Positions 31,608 to 61,149 of a DNA stretch of 64,000 nucleotides are shown one piece after another. The stretch is taken from contig OX335655.1 of NCBI GenBank assembly GCA_946894095.1, positions 620,001-684,000 on the forward strand, in the 5' to 3' direction. Source of the stretch: Incurvaria masculella. Its lineage: Eukaryota > Arthropoda > Insecta > Lepidoptera > Incurvariidae. Each line of letters starts with the position of its first letter. The stretch's first letter is position 1. The notes beneath the pieces are model-generated. The model saw only the letters and a list, made by a program, of their open reading frames with translations, had not been told where the DNA came from and ran no database searches. A program made the translations under genes and the position numbers.

Positions 31608-31787
31608 CTTTCGTTTCGCCCTTTCTTTTTTTTTTTTTTTTTTTTTCTTTTTCTTCTCTTTTTTATTATGAATAAACAATTAAAAAATTGGGCCACAATT
31701 GACCGAGAAATCTGTGAACGGATATAAAAGATATATAGGGACGAACATAGAAACTCCTTTTGTGAAGACGGTAAAAATTAAATAAAA

Positions 31788-33398
31788 ATGGATCAAATTT
31801 CCATTATTAAAACGAGAGCTATGACAAAAACCAACTCTATGCCAGAATTAACAAGAAATTCATCGGAATATGAAGACTTAATGAATAAAATTAAAACATT
31901 AGAAAAAACAATTAAGGAACAATACTTAATGATACGGGAAAAGGAAACAAAAATTGAAACACTGCAAAATCAATTAGAAATGTACAGCGATATAAATTTA
32001 GAAGAAAAATGTAAAAAAATTGAAACTCAGCTAAAGGAACAAAGCTCTAAACTAGAAGAGAAAAATACACTTATAACAACTTTACTTATAGAGCATGAAC
32101 AAAATAGTATAGAATTCAAAAAAAATTGCGACAAAAACCAAGATTTGAAGAACCAGCTTGCGGAAATGCAAATAGAAAATGCTGATCTCTTAGATCGATT
32201 GGAAACTGCCCAACGTGAAGCAGACCTACATAAAGCTGAGTGTGATGAATTTGAATGTAGCACCATACAAGTAATAACACCCCTAAAATTAAAATTAGTA
32301 AATTTAGAGAAAGAACATCTGCAACTGCAAACTATGTATTCAGTTGTGAAAAGCCATTCTGAAAAACCTAACACTAACTACAACGAGAACAGGAGCACTG
32401 CTAAAATTTATGACCTGGAAAATAAGATTACCAACTATAGGAAAATAATTCATAAGTTAAAAACAATGTTGAAACGGCTATCTAATAACAACAAATTAAT
32501 TAAAAATCAGTTGCAAATGTTGAGAAGTAACAAAGAGGACAAGGAGATTCTTAAAAATATAAAGTCTTGTAATGATAAGCTTACGAAAATATGTGAAAAT
32601 CTAAGTGATGACAAAAAACTAAGTAATATAGATATATCTACTCAAAGTGAAGAGAATACTAATATGACCATGATCCCAGAAACTTCAAAATACAGCGACA
32701 AAGCTGTAAATGCACCTGTCTACGAGAAAGGTCCCCAGCATTGTCCACCACCTCCATCGAATGACTTTAAAGATCCTAAAAAAACATCAAAAAAAACTAA
32801 AGTACTCATCCAGTCAGACTTCCATGGAACGGAACTAGCATACATTATGAATTCTTCTCCAAAAATTGAAACTGTCACAGACATCCTTCAAGGAGCTACT
32901 ACCGACGAGCTTCTGAAAAACGTTAAAGCAAAAACCAAGAACTATTCTTTGAGTGATTATGTGGTTATTTTCTGTGGAGTGAGTGACTTTAACAGTTTGT
33001 CGATATCGGAGTCAATGGAACACATATCAAACTGCGTAGGACATTTAAAACACACTAATGTTATCTTGATAACTGTGCCTTATGCAAATGATAGCAAATC
33101 TCATAAATATAATATTTTCGTCGAAAAATTTAACAAAAGTCTGTGCCTTTATCATAGTTCATTGAATAACCCAAAAGTTCATTTAATAATTGCTAAAGAC
33201 TGTATAAATGTTGTAGATTTTAAAAAAGACGGTTACAAGATAAATAAAATGGGTAAATATAAATTAGCTAAGAAAATATATGAAATTGTAAATGGCCCAT
33301 CTGGGTCAGCAAATCATTCATCAAAAGTAGTCATGAACAAGGTAAACACAAGTAATGACCATTTTCTAAATGCAATGATTGGAATGGATCAGACTTAG
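31788..33398 (+). CDS. LINE ORF1 protein, coiled coil plus SGNH-like domain
   Basis: 536 residues with no internal stop. Residues about 25-275 are Glu/Lys/Leu/Gln-rich with heptad character, a long coiled coil probably used for multimerisation and RNA binding. A Pro-containing linker (CPPPPSNDF, about 319-327) follows. Residues about 338-502 look like an SGNH/GDSL-type hydrolase fold: QSDFHG (342-347) at block I, VVIFCGVSDFNS (392-403) at block III, VILITVPY (425-432), and DGYKINKMGKYKLA (481-494) at block V. The usual catalytic His of block V (DG.H.N..G) is Lys here, and block III has Ser-Asp for the usual Asn. Esterase-like ORF1 ends are known in CR1/L2-type LINEs; this one may be catalytically dead. 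No zinc knuckle is seen. The start is the first ATG of the frame. It overlaps the open ORF2 frame by about 40 bases. Confidence 0.8.
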   Translation: MDQISIIKTRAMTKTNSMPELTRNSSEYEDLMNKIKTLEKTIKEQYLMIREKETKIETLQNQLEMYSDINLEEKCKKIETQLKEQSSKLEEKNTLITTLLIEHEQNSIEFKKNCDKNQDLKNQLAEMQIENADLLDRLETAQREADLHKAECDEFECSTIQVITPLKLKLVNLEKEHLQLQTMYSVVKSHSEKPNTNYNENRSTAKIYDLENKITNYRKIIHKLKTMLKRLSNNNKLIKNQLQMLRSNKEDKEILKNIKSCNDKLTKICENLSDDKKLSNIDISTQSEENTNMTMIPETSKYSDKAVNAPVYEKGPQHCPPPPSNDFKDPKKTSKKTKVLIQSDFHGTELAYIMNSSPKIETVTDILQGATTDELLKNVKAKTKNYSLSDYVVIFCGVSDFNSLSISESMEHISNCVGHLKHTNVILITVPYANDSKSHKYNIFVEKFNKSLCLYHSSLNNPKVHLIIAKDCINVVDFKKDGYKINKMGKYKLAKKIYEIVNGPSGSANHSSKVVMNKVNTSNDHFLNAMIGMDQT

Positions 33399-33433
33399 GT
33401 AAAAATAATGAATTATACATAGTACATCTGAAC

Positions 33434-36301
33434 ATGAGAAGTATGAGAAATAAAATATTAGAGTTAGAAGAATTTATAGATTCTCTATTAACGGAAAATA
33501 ATGTTATCCCAGATTTTTTATGTCTAACTGAAACATGGTTAGAGCCTAATGAGCATTTAAGCACTAGTATCAATGGCTATATGGCAGTCGCACATCAAAG
33601 TAGACACATATTTAAAGGTGGTGGTACTATAATATATGCTAGTAATAAATTAAAATATATACAAGAATTAGATTTAAGTTCTTATAACATCGAAAAACAA
33701 TTAGAACTATCAGGAGTAAAAGTGAAGACAACTGAAAATTCCTACCTTACAGTGATCTGTATATACAGAAGTCCAACGGGTAACTTTGATGTATTTATAG
33801 ATACAATAAGTAATATGTTACATGAATTGATTTTTAAAGAAATAATTATTATAGGCGATTATAATGTAGATTTTTCAGATAAAAAATCATTAAGATACAA
33901 AACATTTCTGAAATTATGCAAAGAATATGGTCTTAAACTACTAATAAATGAAGCAACTAGAAAGACCCTTACTACTTCCACTTGTATAGACAATATAGTC
34001 ACAAACATAGACAAGACACTGACGTCTTCAAAAATAATTCCGTGTGATATCTCTGATCATGATGTGATACTATTCCATGTTAACAAAAAAACACTTAAGG
34101 AATCAGAACCTATCTATTATAGAAGATTTTATTCCGAAATAAATCTAGAGAACTTTAAAAATACTCTTAACAATATTGACTGGACTATAATGCATAAGGA
34201 AAATGATCCACAAAACGCATTTTCCATATTTCATAACACCCTAAAAGATACTATACAAAGATGTTTTAAAATTAAGAAAGGAAAAATTAATGGTGTAAAG
34301 ACAAATAACTGGATAACACCAGGAATAAAAATATCTAGCAAGGTCAAAAGAGGCATGTTTTTAACTATAAAAGTATCAAATTCTAAACCATTGAAAGAAA
34401 AATATCAAAAATATAATAAAATACTGAAACGGGTGAGAAAAACAGCCAAAAGGAATGCTAATATAGAAGAAATTTCAAATTCCAAAAACAAAATTAAAGC
34501 AACATGGAGCATAGTAAAAAGAAGTACAAATAAAAATAAATTCACCAAAAAAATTGAAAAGATTACATTAAACAAAAATGATACAATTATAGATGACCCA
34601 GTAGAAGTCGCAAATTATTTTAATAATTTTTTTTCTAAAATAGGACATAGTTCAATTAATAATAATAACACTACTAATGATAATGAATATCTTAATCTTT
34701 TAAATAAATATAAAATAAATAATAGTAGATCATTTTTCCTAACTCCTACGAATAATAATGAAGTAAAAAGTATAATTGAGCAATTAAAGCAAAGTAATTC
34801 TACAGGTGAAGATGATATCCACATAAAAATTCTAAAAGAAAATTTTGACCAAATATCTACAGCAATTACTGATATAATTAATGGAAATTTAAGTGCAGGG
34901 AAATTTCCTGAACAATTAAAGATAGCTAAGGTAATACCGTTGTTTAAGAAAGCCGATAAATGTGATGTTAATAATTATCGTCCAATTTCTTTATTGTCGC
35001 CATTATCAAAAATTTTCGAAAAAATAATATTTAGTCGTTTAATAACATTTTTTGAATCTAATAACTACTTATCTCATGCTCAATATGGATACAGAAAAAA
35101 TAAATCCACTAATATGGCCATCAGAAAATTAACTAATGACATTCTAAACCATTTAAACAATGGAAAACATTGTGCCGGTGTTTTTTGTGACTTAAGTAAG
35201 GCTTTTGATTGTGTAGATCACAACATCCTATTAAATAAATTAGAGTACTATGGCATACGAGGGTTACAATTGGAGTTGTTAAAAAGTTATTTAAGTAACC
35301 GTAAACAATATGTAGAAGTGACTTACGTAAATGAAAGGAACGAGGTGTCAACAGCTAAATCAGAAGTAACGAATATCACTAAAGGTGTACCACAAGGATC
35401 GGTCTTAGGTCCGTTACTCTTTTTAATATTTATTAACGATTTGCCCATTAACGTGTCTAGTGCAGTTTACTTGTTTGCGGATGACACAAGCGGAATAGCA
35501 GTTGCTGACAGCAAAGAAAAATTAGTAGAAAACCTAAGAATATGTATACAAAATTTAGAATACTGGTTTTTTAACAACAAACTAACACTTAATAAAGCAA
35601 AATCGAAATACATTATTTTTCAGAAATCTATTAATTATAAAGAGCCAGACACTAGTGACTTCGAACTAGAGAAATGTAAAGCAACAGAATTTTTGGGGGT
35701 CACTTTTGATAATATAATGTCATTTCAACCACATGTAGATAACATAGGAAATAAAATAGCCTGTGCATGTTATGCTATTAGAACAATTAGAAAATCTGTC
35801 GACACAAGTACGTTAAGAATAATATATTTTAGTTATATAGAATCGATTTTAAGGTATGGACTGGATGTATGGGGTAATAATTGCAATGTAAAAAATAATA
35901 TTCTCAAACTTCAGAAAAAGGTTATTCGAATAATTTGTGGTGCGAAATATGATGATACTTGCCGGCCCCTTTTTGTGAAATTAAAAATAATGACAGTAAT
36001 TTCGTTATATATATTCATATTATGCATAGAAATCCATAAGATAAAGGAAGATTTGGAAAAAGTAAAAGAAGTACAAAGGTATAACTTAAGAAATAATGAA
36101 AGTTTTAGACAAAAAGGACCTAAATGTTTATTATTTAAGAATTCATTTGATTATTTAGGAGTTAAAATTTACAATCATTTAAATATATCGATTAGAAATA
36201 GTAATACGTTGACCGATTTTAAGATTAAGTTGAAGGAATATTTATTGTGCCACCCATTTTATAATTTAGAAGAATTTTTCAATGAATCTGATAGCAATTA
36301 A
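33434..36301 (+). CDS. LINE ORF2: APE endonuclease and reverse transcriptase
   Basis: 955 residues from the first ATG, with no internal stop. Endonuclease motifs are present: ETWL (33-36), YRSP (111-114), GDYNVDF (141-147), IDNIVT (185-190) and SDH (207-209). Reverse transcriptase motifs: AKVIPLFKK (498-506), NYRPISLL (514-521), DLSKAFDCVDH (586-596, first catalytic Asp), KGVPQGSVLGPLLF (650-663) and LFADDTSG (680-687, catalytic Asp pair). The C-terminal part (about 740-955) has no RNase H motif that I recognise. The frame is open upstream to 33359, and the conserved endonuclease start (LYIVHLNMRS) spans the ATG, so the real protein probably begins upstream, by reinitiation or frameshifting. 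All catalytic residues appear intact. Confidence 0.88.
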   Translation: MRSMRNKILELEEFIDSLLTENNVIPDFLCLTETWLEPNEHLSTSINGYMAVAHQSRHIFKGGGTIIYASNKLKYIQELDLSSYNIEKQLELSGVKVKTTENSYLTVICIYRSPTGNFDVFIDTISNMLHELIFKEIIIIGDYNVDFSDKKSLRYKTFLKLCKEYGLKLLINEATRKTLTTSTCIDNIVTNIDKTLTSSKIIPCDISDHDVILFHVNKKTLKESEPIYYRRFYSEINLENFKNTLNNIDWTIMHKENDPQNAFSIFHNTLKDTIQRCFKIKKGKINGVKTNNWITPGIKISSKVKRGMFLTIKVSNSKPLKEKYQKYNKILKRVRKTAKRNANIEEISNSKNKIKATWSIVKRSTNKNKFTKKIEKITLNKNDTIIDDPVEVANYFNNFFSKIGHSSINNNNTTNDNEYLNLLNKYKINNSRSFFLTPTNNNEVKSIIEQLKQSNSTGEDDIHIKILKENFDQISTAITDIINGNLSAGKFPEQLKIAKVIPLFKKADKCDVNNYRPISLLSPLSKIFEKIIFSRLITFFESNNYLSHAQYGYRKNKSTNMAIRKLTNDILNHLNNGKHCAGVFCDLSKAFDCVDHNILLNKLEYYGIRGLQLELLKSYLSNRKQYVEVTYVNERNEVSTAKSEVTNITKGVPQGSVLGPLLFLIFINDLPINVSSAVYLFADDTSGIAVADSKEKLVENLRICIQNLEYWFFNNKLTLNKAKSKYIIFQKSINYKEPDTSDFELEKCKATEFLGVTFDNIMSFQPHVDNIGNKIACACYAIRTIRKSVDTSTLRIIYFSYIESILRYGLDVWGNNCNVKNNILKLQKKVIRIICGAKYDDTCRPLFVKLKIMTVISLYIFILCIEIHKIKEDLEKVKEVQRYNLRNNESFRQKGPKCLLFKNSFDYLGVKIYNHLNISIRNSNTLTDFKIKLKEYLLCHPFYNLEEFFNESDSN

Positions 36302-41474: not shown

Positions 41475-42752
41475 GGTCGGGGAAAAAGTCTTTTCGCATT
41501 ATAGTATGTATGAACTTGTAATAAAATCTCTTTGGCTATACTATTTGTATCTGGCTGGTTTTGGTATCATTGAAAGTTTAAATTTTAAAGAACATAATTC
41601 CAAATTCAAATTAGGAAAATGTGTGATTCTCATTTGTTTTTCGTACTGTCAAAATGAGTGAATCTAATGAAGAAATTCGATACATTTTAAAATTTTACTA
41701 CAAAAAAGGTAAAAATGCAACGCAAGCCGCGAAAAAAATTTGCGATGTTTATGGACCTAGTGCAGTGTCTGTGAGAGTAGCACAAATTTGGTTTAAGCGT
41801 TTTCAATCCGGAAATTTTGATGTCAAAGATGCACGTCGCTCTGGTCGCCCTATTACGGATAAAATGGATGCCATTTTTGAAAAAGTGGAGCAAGATGGCA
41901 TATCAGTAGTTACGACGTAGCTGAAGAACTAGGAATTGACCACAAAACAGTTTTGGCGCATTTGAAAAAAACTGGGTACACAAAAAAGCTCGATATTTGG
42001 GTACCTCACGAGCTCACTGAAAGAAACCTAATGAACCGTGTACTCATTTGTGATTCTTTATTACGACGTAATGAAACCGAACCATTTTTGAAGAAGCTGA
42101 TAACTGGTGATGAAAAGTGGATCACGTACGACAAGAACGTGCGAAAAAGGTCGTGGTCAAAGGCCGGTCAAGCTTCACAGACTGTGGCGAAACCCGGGTT
42201 AACTCGCAACAAGGTGATGCTGTGTGTGTGGTGGAATTGGAAGGGCATTATTCATTATGAGCTGTTACCACCAGGCAGGACCATCGATTCTGAACTCTAC
42301 TGCGAACAACTGATGAGATTAAAGCAAGAAGTTGAGAGAAAGCGGCCGGAATTAATCAACAGAAGGGGTGTGGTTTTTCATCATGATAACGCTAGACCTC
42401 ACACATCTTTAGCCACTCAGCAAAAACTAAGAGAGTTTGGCTGGGAGGTGTTAATGCATCCGCCGTATAGTCCTGACCTTGCACCTTCAGATTTCCACCT
42501 GTTTAGGTCTCTTCAGAATTATTTAGGCAGTGTCAGGTTAACATCACGAGAGGACTGCCAAAACCACTTGTCGCGGTATATTGATCAGAAGTCCTAATAT
42601 TTCTATAGCAATGGGATCATGTCCCTACCTACAAGATGGCAAAAAGTTATCGAACAAAATGGTACCTACATACTTTAGTTAAATGTAAATAAACCATATT
42701 AAAAAATGTTTTGAATTTTCTTAAAAAATGCGAAGAAACTTTTTCCCCAACC
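41475..42752 (+). mobile_element. Full-length mariner element
   Basis: 1278 bp, the standard mariner size. The ends GGTCGGGGAAAAAGTCTTTT and the complement of AGAAACTTTTTCCCCAACC form terminal inverted repeats of about 28 bp with a few mismatches. TA precedes the left end; the right flank is AATA. Confidence 0.88.
41654..42678 (+). pseudogene. mariner transposase, frameshift plus nonsense
   Basis: Cut-and-paste DNA transposase of the Tc1/mariner superfamily, nearly complete (about 341 codons). The N-terminal part (41654-41893) has the helix-turn-helix region with WFKRFQSGNF and RSGRP. A one-base deletion near 41895 shifts the frame; the trace then continues SSYDVAEELGID and the long open frame 41953-42597. 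Catalytic motifs are TGDEKW, HHDNARPH and YSPDLAPSDFHLF, with 34 residues between the second and third Asp (D,D34D). A TAA at 42595-42597 interrupts the end; the same frame then reads NGIMSLPTRWQKVIEQNG to TAG at 42676. Two disabling changes in an otherwise well-preserved gene suggest a fairly young but inactive copy. Confidence 0.9.
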
Positions 42753-52160: not shown

Positions 52161-52460
52161 AAAAAACCGGCCAAGTGCGAGTCGGACTCGCACACGAAGG
52201 GTTCCGTACCATCGTACAAGATTTAATACAAAAAAATCACCTTTTTTGTACGGGACCCCGGTTTAATGTTTATTATTTTTTATTTTACCTATTTGTTGTT
52301 ATAACGGCAAAATAAATACACACTCTGTGAAAATTTCAGCTGCCTACCTATTACGGTTCATGAGATACAGCCCTGTGACAGACGGACGGACGGACGGACG
52401 GACAGCGGAGGCTTAGTAATAGGGTTCCGTTTTCACCCTTTGGGTACGGAACCCTAAAAA
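52161..52460 (-). repeat. (GTCY)n-bearing repeat, minus strand, full length
   Basis: Reverse-complement copy with both ends: AAAAACCGGCCAAGTGCGAG at the left and GGGTACGGAACCCTAAAAA at the right. Confidence 0.88.
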
Positions 52461-54830: not shown

Positions 54831-54866
54831 TTTCGGCATTGCACTCACGATGAATTTTGTTCGCAG

Positions 54867-55039
54867 GAGGTGTGGGCGACGACGACGGAGACAGCGGCAA
54901 GCGGCGCCGCTCGCGGACAAACTTCAACTCGTGGCAACTGGAGGAGCTCGAGCGGGCGTTCCTCGCGAGCCACTACCCCGACGTGTTCATGAGAGAAGCG
55001 CTCGCCATGCGCCTCGACCTCAAGGAGAGCCGTGTCGCT
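54867..55039 (+). CDS. unc-4: unc-4 homeobox gene, coding exon 2 (homeodomain 1-46)
   Basis: Acceptor TTGTTCGCAG and donor GTGAGT are both strong. The exon completes the split Gly codon from exon 1 and adds 57 residues: acidic [11 protein letters not shown], then homeodomain positions 1-46, beginning [16 protein letters not shown] and ending KESRVA. Arg5, Phe8, Leu16 and Phe20 are in place. [18 protein letters not shown] across helices 1-2 is diagnostic of the UNC-4/UNCX class. The exon stops after position 46 in phase 0, the conserved paired-class intron site; the missing exon should start with Val47-Trp48-Phe49. UNC-4 proteins are nuclear transcription factors, generally repressors with Groucho, which set motor-neuron and interneuron identity. 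No competing class fits as well; a lineage-specific unc-4 paralogue (as OdsH is in Drosophila) cannot be excluded. The next intron begins with exon-derived tandem repeats. Confidence 0.92.
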
Positions 55040-55063
55040 GTGAGTACCTTCCTGTATCTACAG

Positions 55064-55150
55064 AATCGTTCATATTTATGAGAGAAGCGCTCGCCATCCG
55101 CCATAAACACCTTCCTTAATCTACGGAGACACACGGAGACGCACTCTGCT
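55064..55150 (+). pseudogene. Deleted duplicate of the homeobox exon
   Basis: ATGAGAGAAGCGCTCGCCAT at 55078-55097 is identical to exon 2 (54989-55008). The copy then skips about 30 exon bases and resumes with ACACCTTCCTTAATCTAC, matching the first intron bases after exon 2 (ACCTTCCTGTATCTAC). It is closer to the exon than the array units that follow, and is followed by CACTCTGCT, the array junction motif. Confidence 0.85.
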
Positions 55151-55975
55151 GTGTTCATGAAAGATGCGTTCGCTATGCAGCTCGACCTCATGGATAGCGA
55201 TGTCGCTGTGGATACTTTCCTGTATCTATAGAGACACTTTTAACTCCCGGTAACTGAAGGAGATCGAGAGGGTGTTGTCAGCACTCTGCTGTGTTCATGA
55301 AAGATGTGTTCGCTATGAAGCTCGAACTCACGGATAGCGGTGTCGCTGGGTACTTTCCTGTATCTATAGAGACACTTTTAACTCCCGGTGAATGAAGGAG
55401 ATCGAGTGGGTTCTGTCAGCACTCTGCTGTGTTCATGAAAGATGCGTTCGTTATGCAGCTCGACCTCATGGATAGCGATGTCGCTGTGGATACTTTCCTG
55501 TATCTATAGAGACACTTTTAACTCCCGGTAACTGAAGGAGATCGAGAGGGTGTTGTCAGCACTCTGCTGTGTTCATGAAAGATGTGTTCGCTATGAAGCT
55601 CGAACTCACTGATAGCGATGTCGCTGTGGATACTTTCCTGTATCTATAGAGACACTTTTAACTCCCGGTAACTGAATGAGATCGAGAGGGTGTTGTCAGC
55701 ACTCTGCTGTGTTCATGAAAGATGTGTTCGCTATGAAGCTCGAACTCACGGATAGCGATGTCGCTGTGGATACTTTCCTCTATCTATAGAGACACTTTTA
55801 ACTCCCGGTAACTGAAGGATATCGAGAGGGTGTTGTCAGCACTCTGCTGTGTTCATGAAAGATGTGTTCGCTATGAAGCTCGACCTCACGGATAGTGGTG
55901 TCGCAGTGGGTACTCTCCTGTATCTATAGAGACACTTTTAACTCTCGGTGATTGAAGGAGATGTACAGGCTATTT
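55151..55975 (+). repeat. Homeobox-exon-derived tandem array, six units
   Basis: Units start with GTGTTCATGA at 55151, 55291, 55429, 55569, 55709 and 55849, giving periods of 140, 138, 140, 140 and 140 bp. Each unit is exon 2 from about homeodomain residue 28 to 46 plus the first 24 intron bases (ending TATCTATAG), followed by a copy of residues about 6-21 (TTTTAACTCCCGGTAACTGA) and a shortened junction (GTCAGCACTCTGCT). Similarity to the exon is roughly 80% by eye. A TAA replaces Gln12, and an 8-base loss shifts the frame between the halves, so no homeodomain can be made. The GTGAGT donor has become GTGGAT or lost a base. Units at 55151 and 55429 differ at one position. The last unit decays at about 55960. 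Confidence 0.92.
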
Positions 55976-60847: not shown

Positions 60848-61149
60848 TAAAAACCGGCCAATTGCGAGTCGGACTCGCACACGAAGGGTTCCGTACCATC
60901 GTACAAGATTTACCCCGATATAACACGTTTTTTGTATGCCCCCCCCCCCCTTTAATTTTGATCATTTTATAATTCTACCTATTTGTTGTTATAGCGGCAA
61001 AATAAATAAATAATCTGTGAACATTTCAGCTTCCTACCTGTTATGGTTCATGAGATACAGCCCTGTGACAGACGGACGGACGGACGGACGGACAGCGGAG
61101 TCTTAGTAATAGGGTTCCGTTTTCACCCTTTGCGTACGGAACTCTAAAA
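60848..61149 (-). repeat. (GTCY)n-bearing repeat, minus strand, full length
   Basis: AAAACCGGCCAATTGCGAG at the left; the GGAC tract at 61072-61095; TACGGAACTCTAAAAA at the right. A poly-C run at 60940-60952 replaces the usual GGGCCC block. Confidence 0.85.

Follow-up and report, generated by a model that had tools for sequence, protein, structure and literature searches.

The tandem array that follows exon 2 of an unc-4-like gene in Incurvaria masculella is, with a probability that we put at roughly 0.8 from the sequence, a splice-boundary minisatellite (a "mirage") and one case of a tandem duplication of exon edges that recurs in this genome. The window analyzed here, a stretch of 64,000 nucleotides, corresponds to C15:620001-684000 of a 552-Mb assembly in 31 contigs; coordinates without a contig are window positions on the forward strand. 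The preliminary description had held that the structure was not known as a described one, but the type is already known, since mirages have been published for amphioxus (PMC3087553 and PMC3902484). What is surprising is the recurrence at homeobox exons and the fact that a single intron has an array at each end.

Anatomy of exon 2 and its repeat

The predicted exon 2 (54867 to 55039; boundaries read from the sequence, with the acceptor AG at 54865 to 54866) codes for the homeodomain through residue 46 (Pfam PF00046; E = 6.7e-14; profile positions 1 to 46) and is followed by the splice donor GTGAGT (55040 to 55045). The profile match itself (54905 to 55042, i.e., C15:674905 to C15:675042) takes in one intron codon past the exon. 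The gene is putatively unc-4, a name for which the Pfam homeobox match provides support; comparison of the exon 2 translation with a large protein collection returned two candidates and no match, and a viral-contig pattern scan found no match.

Alignment delimits the parent segment of the repeat (54916 to 55064), which takes in the last 124 bp of exon 2 and the 25 bp of intron 2 that come next. The array lies directly 3' of exon 2 (55065 to 55962) and comprises seven whole or truncated copies and a stub. It begins with u0 (55065 to 55127), a truncated copy placed by its register with exon 2, and u1 (55128 to 55232), which is without the 5' (helix 1) part. Then follow u2 (55233 to 55370; 138 bp, the donor gone via a 2-bp deletion), u3 (55371 to 55510), u4 (55511 to 55650), u5 (55651 to 55790), and u6 (55791 to 55930), the last four of 140 bp each, and finally u7 (55931 to 55962), a truncated copy after which other intron sequence follows. 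TRF reported a head-to-tail repeat of minisatellite unit size (55141 to 55962; period, 140; 5.9 copies; 93% matches), which bears out the 140-bp tandem array that had been described directly behind exon 2.

Units u2 to u6 align collinearly to exon stretch 54923 to 55064, across the donor at 55040, in a single local alignment that contains an 8-bp deletion, and u1 aligns to 54983 to 55064. The homeodomain-coding content reported earlier (about residues 6 to 21 and 28 to 46) was about right by alignment, and the intron-derived portion of the unit is present, with 25 rather than 24 bases. Chance similarity had been named as what would undo the earlier reading, with alignment of each unit to the exon as the check. 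In that alignment u1 to u6 scored 85 to 94 versus maxima of 23 to 33 in 500 dinucleotide shuffles each, and u0 scored 46 versus a shuffle maximum of 21; elsewhere in the window (1,826 half-overlapping 140-bp pieces, both strands), the best match to the exon scored 29. The TRF result and the alignments together support the view of a minisatellite grown from the homeobox exon and still adjoining its parent.

Decay and internal history of the exon 2 units

The unit sequence differs from the exon by 21.7 to 24.5%, and 25 differences from the exon are fixed among the units covering each site; 14 of the 25 are C>T or G>A changes. Because these 25 differences are fixed, the array is not a direct expansion of the present-day exon. 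A TAA in the homeodomain frame is present in 5/5 complete units. At the parental donor position, u1 to u6 carry GTGGAT in four cases and GTGGGT in one (u6), i.e., a weakened GT in 5/6 units, while the site is lost in u2, so that a splice signal is found in many but not all units; where each unit had been said to include the exon 2 donor, the position stands and the intact donor does not. The differences between u4 and the exon are spread over the codon positions as 10/37, 7/39, and 12/38. Because of the stops, the decay of the donors, and this spread, the copies are not maintained as homeodomain code.

As for a repeat coding for a multi-homeodomain protein, the units hold stops and the changes in u4 lack a third-position bias. 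Mutually exclusive and other tandem duplicated exons also place tandem exon copies in an intron, but the units here are half-exons without the parental acceptor, with the TAA, deletions, and decayed donors noted above; on the same grounds, the possibility that the units are complete duplicate exons was ruled out.

Among the units, u3 equals u1 at 91/92 aligned sites and u4 equals u2 at 134/137, versus 125/137 for u2 and u3; the exon equals the complete units at 105 to 107 of 137 to 139 sites. The closer likeness of u1 to u3 and of u2 to u4 than of u2 to u3 suggests that part of the growth of the array took place in two-unit blocks. With these pairs near-equal, the exon apart, and u0 separate, the pattern is one of concerted evolution within the array in which the edge units are left out. 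In its first matched stretch u0 has 26/28 bases the same as the exon, and since it retains the exon state at 7/7 checked sites (54993 onward) where the other units changed, this copy at the edge of the array is older than the others or separate from them.

Mirror arrays on the acceptor side

Exon 3 of the unc-4-like gene is preceded by copies of its own beginning: at C15:693179-694621 (L010 9179-10000 plus L011 1-621) there are ten 146-bp copies of the acceptor and the recognition helix, with the real exon last. Nine of the copies read TGGTTCC and one TGATTCC. Intron 2, of 19.5 kb, thus opens with an array of the end of exon 2 and closes with an array of the start of exon 3. TRF gave 98 to 99% matches for the latter. 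The exon 2 array is the old one and the exon 3 array the young one. Reading from any upstream exon 3 acceptor goes out of frame or runs into a stop, because 146 is no multiple of three and each 438-base cycle has a stop, and only the last of the ten acceptors is predicted to yield the right protein.

A genome search with the pattern WFQNRR gave 85 matches, versus 8 for the reversed control pattern. Nine of the matches, mostly 181 bp apart, fall in C17:241531-242983, where, in the 801 bases read, an acceptor is present in the copies and the final copy, the real exon, runs into other coding sequence and a donor. Three more lie at C10:15933080-15933562, within a caudal-like array that takes in the third helix. 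An aristaless-like exon (L002/L019) probably has an acceptor-side repeat, with shorter units. Boundary arrays are therefore found in one genome at both the donor side (17 cases; see below) and the acceptor side (unc-4 exon 3 and C17:241531-242983).

Survey of homeobox exons

When the genome was searched with two exon 2 units, no locus beyond exon 2 of the unc-4-like gene was found. The search with the exon led to a gooseberry/Pax3/7-like exon (L003, C17) that has a donor-side array of its own (136 bp, 4.7 copies) and to the aristaless-like exon mentioned above. A whole-genome profile search with PF00046 yielded at least 150 scored matches (243 candidates) in 95 clusters, and among the matches listed, 9/95 homeobox clusters had regularly spaced partial copies; the same table holds 13 copies, mostly 172 bp apart, at C22:11313352, 12 copies at 159 bp at C8:3375081, and 10 copies at about 149 bp at C25:4383847. 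The names used for such loci (slou-, exex-, gsc-, Pitx-, caudal-, aristaless-, and gooseberry-like) are provisional.

The survey set consisted of all 46 clusters with a match ending inside the homeodomain and five others, i.e., 51 exons; L031, L037, and L039, which had been fetched for their copies and lie outside the 46 clusters, were excluded. An exon was scored positive if it had a downstream copy of at least 40 bp, with an E value below 1e-9, starting in the exon. Downstream self-copies were found by this criterion in 17/51 homeobox exons, all of them among the 46, and the best copy crosses the end of the homeodomain in 16 of the 17 (L060 is the exception). The arrays lie on the donor side in all 17 surveyed cases, and the periods at exon edges are mostly about 105 to 235 bp. 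Since the same strand has a WFQNRR site no more than 60 kb downstream in at least 13 of the 17 (among the 66 of 85 pattern matches listed), and since a WFSNRR exon was read for a 14th positive (L016), the array-bearing homeobox genes look live.

Two loci, L056 (C22:7890954) and L057 (C22:8029910), are opposite-strand homeobox paralogs in which the same homeodomain stretch has a donor-side array, each its own. This pair offers a chance to date the birth of an array against a gene duplication.

Background and other gene families

The same criterion was applied to background windows drawn from 264 kb of DNA in the neighborhoods of four homeobox loci, and 65/1267 of them were positive, or 43/1240 without one coding array that contributed 22 positives in its 27 windows. 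This coding array (C17, about 7521717 to 7526053; L018 6718-10000 plus L016 1-1054) is a 150-bp repeat of about 29 copies in one 1,452-codon open frame, and it is probably a repetitive protein gene. Array-bearing exons were richer in GC than the others (0.646 versus 0.613; P = 0.018). At a GC content of at least 0.5, 17/50 exons were positive versus 5/122 background windows without the coding array and 27/146 with it (P = 0.03), figures for which the P values are only a guide and too optimistic, because the windows overlap, cover both strands, and come from four homeobox neighborhoods rather than from exon edges. Since the GC-matched background depends in this way on the coding array, GC may account for more than we have credited to it, and the excess over GC-rich background hinges on dropping that array.

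Other families were examined in the same genome. Of a planned set of 40 Ras exons, 20 entered the same test and two of these were positive, one of them (L099) through a single 41-bp match, and the profile table holds three Ras array loci, C11:4518225-4519780, C11:20635955-20636905, and C23:1083314-1089925, the last at weak E values. For bHLH genes, all 76 of 76 candidates were scored, giving 60 matches at about 49 loci, two of which had copies: an exon at C24:6524564-6526810 with eleven copies 213 bp apart (profile table only) and a pair at C19:4487559/4487739. The P450 family, a weak control with 92 of 431 candidates scored, had one adjacent pair (C15:15161198/15161366) among 95 matches. The Ras and bHLH cases show that arrays at exon edges extend beyond homeobox genes; that homeobox exons are preferred is suggested but not proven.

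Divergence across arrays

Differences among units were tabulated for 15 arrays, i.e., the 17 positives minus L040 and L060, with the unit length of L001 set to 89 because of u0. The exon- and intron-derived parts differed alike in L016 (0.151/0.162), L053 (0.142/0.137), and L070 (0.239/0.239), with exceptions in both directions (L032, 0.015/0.073; L056, 0.123/0.409; L036, 0.131/0.093; L035, 0.072/0.000). Pooled over the 15 arrays, variable columns amounted to 87/516, 60/520, and 104/523 by codon position and to 99/511 in the intron part. In our reading, the copies drift almost neutrally, and composition or homogenization with the exon has some influence on them. The unevenness over codon positions, with its dip at the second position (chi-square P = 0.003), means that a trace of constraint, of composition bias, or of homogenization with the selected exon remains, which counts against the explanation that we favor.

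Divergence of donor-side arrays from their exons ranges from less than 1% to about 25%. At the low end are L030 and L032, where the exon-derived part of the copies is 0.7% different from the exon, so that these two arrays would be either young or homogenized with the live exon; either fits.

Discussion

A tandem duplication confined to an exon either disrupts the reading frame or makes the protein longer; one confined to an intron mostly goes unnoticed. When a duplication crosses the boundary, a complete exon remains at one edge, and half-exons with just one of the two splice sites are added. In the origin that we propose for the exon 2 array, a segment of about 149 bp that straddles the exon 2/intron 2 boundary would have been duplicated in tandem; its homology and order come from alignment, and the event itself is our reconstruction. 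Such a duplication would be tolerated because one complete exon survives at the array edge, here, to judge from the anatomy, the upstream-most copy with its own acceptor and donor. The new copies would be half-exons starting inside the exon, without the parental acceptor, and splicing by exon definition would pass over them. This selective filter would explain the position of the live exon, which stands upstream of its copies in donor-side arrays and downstream of them in acceptor-side arrays. One copy, freed from coding constraint, would then have drifted, acquiring the in-frame stop, the 8-bp deletion, and a decayed donor, and the drifted copy would have multiplied through unequal exchange or slippage, seemingly in part by two-unit blocks. 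The explanation requires no function for the copies, and among the three options first offered (an effect on splicing, a template for conversion of the exon, and neutral debris), neutral debris is the best fit.

It is quite improbable that the units form a splicing device, i.e., decoy donors or poison exons that set the level of full-length unc-4 mRNA. Cryptic exons are conceivable because the intron-derived part of the unit closes with a pyrimidine-rich run and AG (e.g., CTGTATCTATAG) and because a site between CCG and GT that matches the donor consensus at 7 of 9 positions is present in 5/5 complete units (GTAACT in u2, u4, u5, and u6; GTGAAT in u3), and a cryptic exon read in the homeodomain frame would meet the TAA. 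However, GT sites scoring at least 7 make up about 4% of the 3,718 GTs in the window, donors in the parental register score 2 to 5 of 9 in the units versus 6 of 9 in the parent exon, the unit sequence appears free to drift, and RT-PCR in amphioxus was reported to suggest normal splicing across mirages (PMC3087553). A role as template for gene conversion into exon 2 is very improbable. It would be in keeping with the near identity of exon and units in L030 and L032 and with the 20 consecutive bases that u0 shares with the exon, but the longest identical runs in u1 to u6 are 10 to 12 bases, a length reached in 1,364 to 1,873 of 2,000 match-string shuffles, and the exon reads as an intact homeodomain while the copies carry stops and deletions. 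Since these runs match the expectation for scattered differences, u1 to u6 show no sign of a recent conversion tract, and the earlier suggestion of such a template is left unsupported.

We regard an artefact of assembly or amplification as extremely improbable for the exon 2 array, because its units stand 21.7 to 24.5% from the exon and because the arrays at other loci differ in age; moreover, shared derived changes and a block pattern are not assembler-made. Near-identical arrays such as that of unc-4 exon 3 could nevertheless be wrong in copy number. A process specific to homeobox genes, for example by way of a sequence or chromatin feature that they share, as opposed to one acting on exon edges generally, seems to us unlikely, although less so. 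The frequency of 17/51 versus 2/20 for Ras exons (Fisher P = 0.07) and versus the background windows speaks for it; arrays at three Ras loci (one with weak E values) and at two of about 49 bHLH loci speak against it, as does the finding that by the profile table alone regular copies occur, among the matches listed, at just 9/95 homeobox loci.

A recurrent duplication of exon edges resembles the mirages of amphioxus, which are minisatellite-like tandem duplications spanning exon-intron boundaries in Adh3 and the globin genes BflGb6 and BflGb9 (PMC3087553); a troponin C mirage and similar repeats in PGBD5 are also described (PMC3902484). In amphioxus, BflGb6 units are 150 to 160 bp, splice signals are found in many but not all units, edge units escape homogenization, and haplotypes vary in length, with splicing reported as normal (PMC3087553). 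In both settings units cross the boundary beside the parent exon, on the donor or the acceptor side. Unlike the amphioxus cases, the arrays described here are in an insect, at homeobox exons, at many loci per genome, and at both ends of the same intron, the exon 2 units have decayed to about 75% identity, and the structures are known from the sequence of one assembly. No insect mirage was found in the open-access literature searched. Intron gain by tandem genomic duplication likewise duplicates a segment with a splice signal (PMC4974935; PMC3087553), but that model yields a new intron, whereas here no new intron or exon is indicated. Ordinary intronic minisatellites or VNTRs share the period, the head-to-tail order, and the block pattern with the exon 2 array, but here the unit is a recognizable exon edge that includes its splice site, and the exon itself forms the first unit.

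We tentatively propose, as a combination that we would put at somewhat below even odds, that in this lineage of insects the edges of transcription factor exons are preferred seeds of minisatellites (about 8- to 10-fold over nearby DNA without the coding array) and that the live exons of L030, L032, and L033 have been homogenized with their noncoding copies, so that homeobox coding sequence would evolve partly in concert with the arrays. If this is true, intron 2 of unc-4, which is flanked at either end by a half-exon array and has a row of ten near-identical 3' splice sites, would be a natural test of exon definition, and such introns would be a standing source of new exons and introns. The nine extra near-identical acceptors before unc-4 exon 3 form one natural experiment, and the donor-side arrays, which cover a range of divergence and are raw material of the kind proposed for intron gain, form another. 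Finding mirages so often in an insect, at one in three of the homeobox exons surveyed, would mean that tandem duplication at exon edges gives rise to them more generally. Moreover, half-exon copies can inflate gene models and homeobox counts in such genomes.

Several other elements were recorded. In what looks like the Hox region, C13:9093607-9243958, there are several extra full-length homeoboxes that resemble what we take to be the lepidopteran Shx genes. The window contains a LINE (31782 to 36301) with two long overlapping open frames of 538 and 980 codons, the second with endonuclease and reverse transcriptase domains, and a mariner-type transposase frame of 238 codons (41881 to 42597). 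TRF also found one 12-bp consensus, GACAGACGGACG, in two separate arrays (52377 to 52409 and 61067 to 61099).
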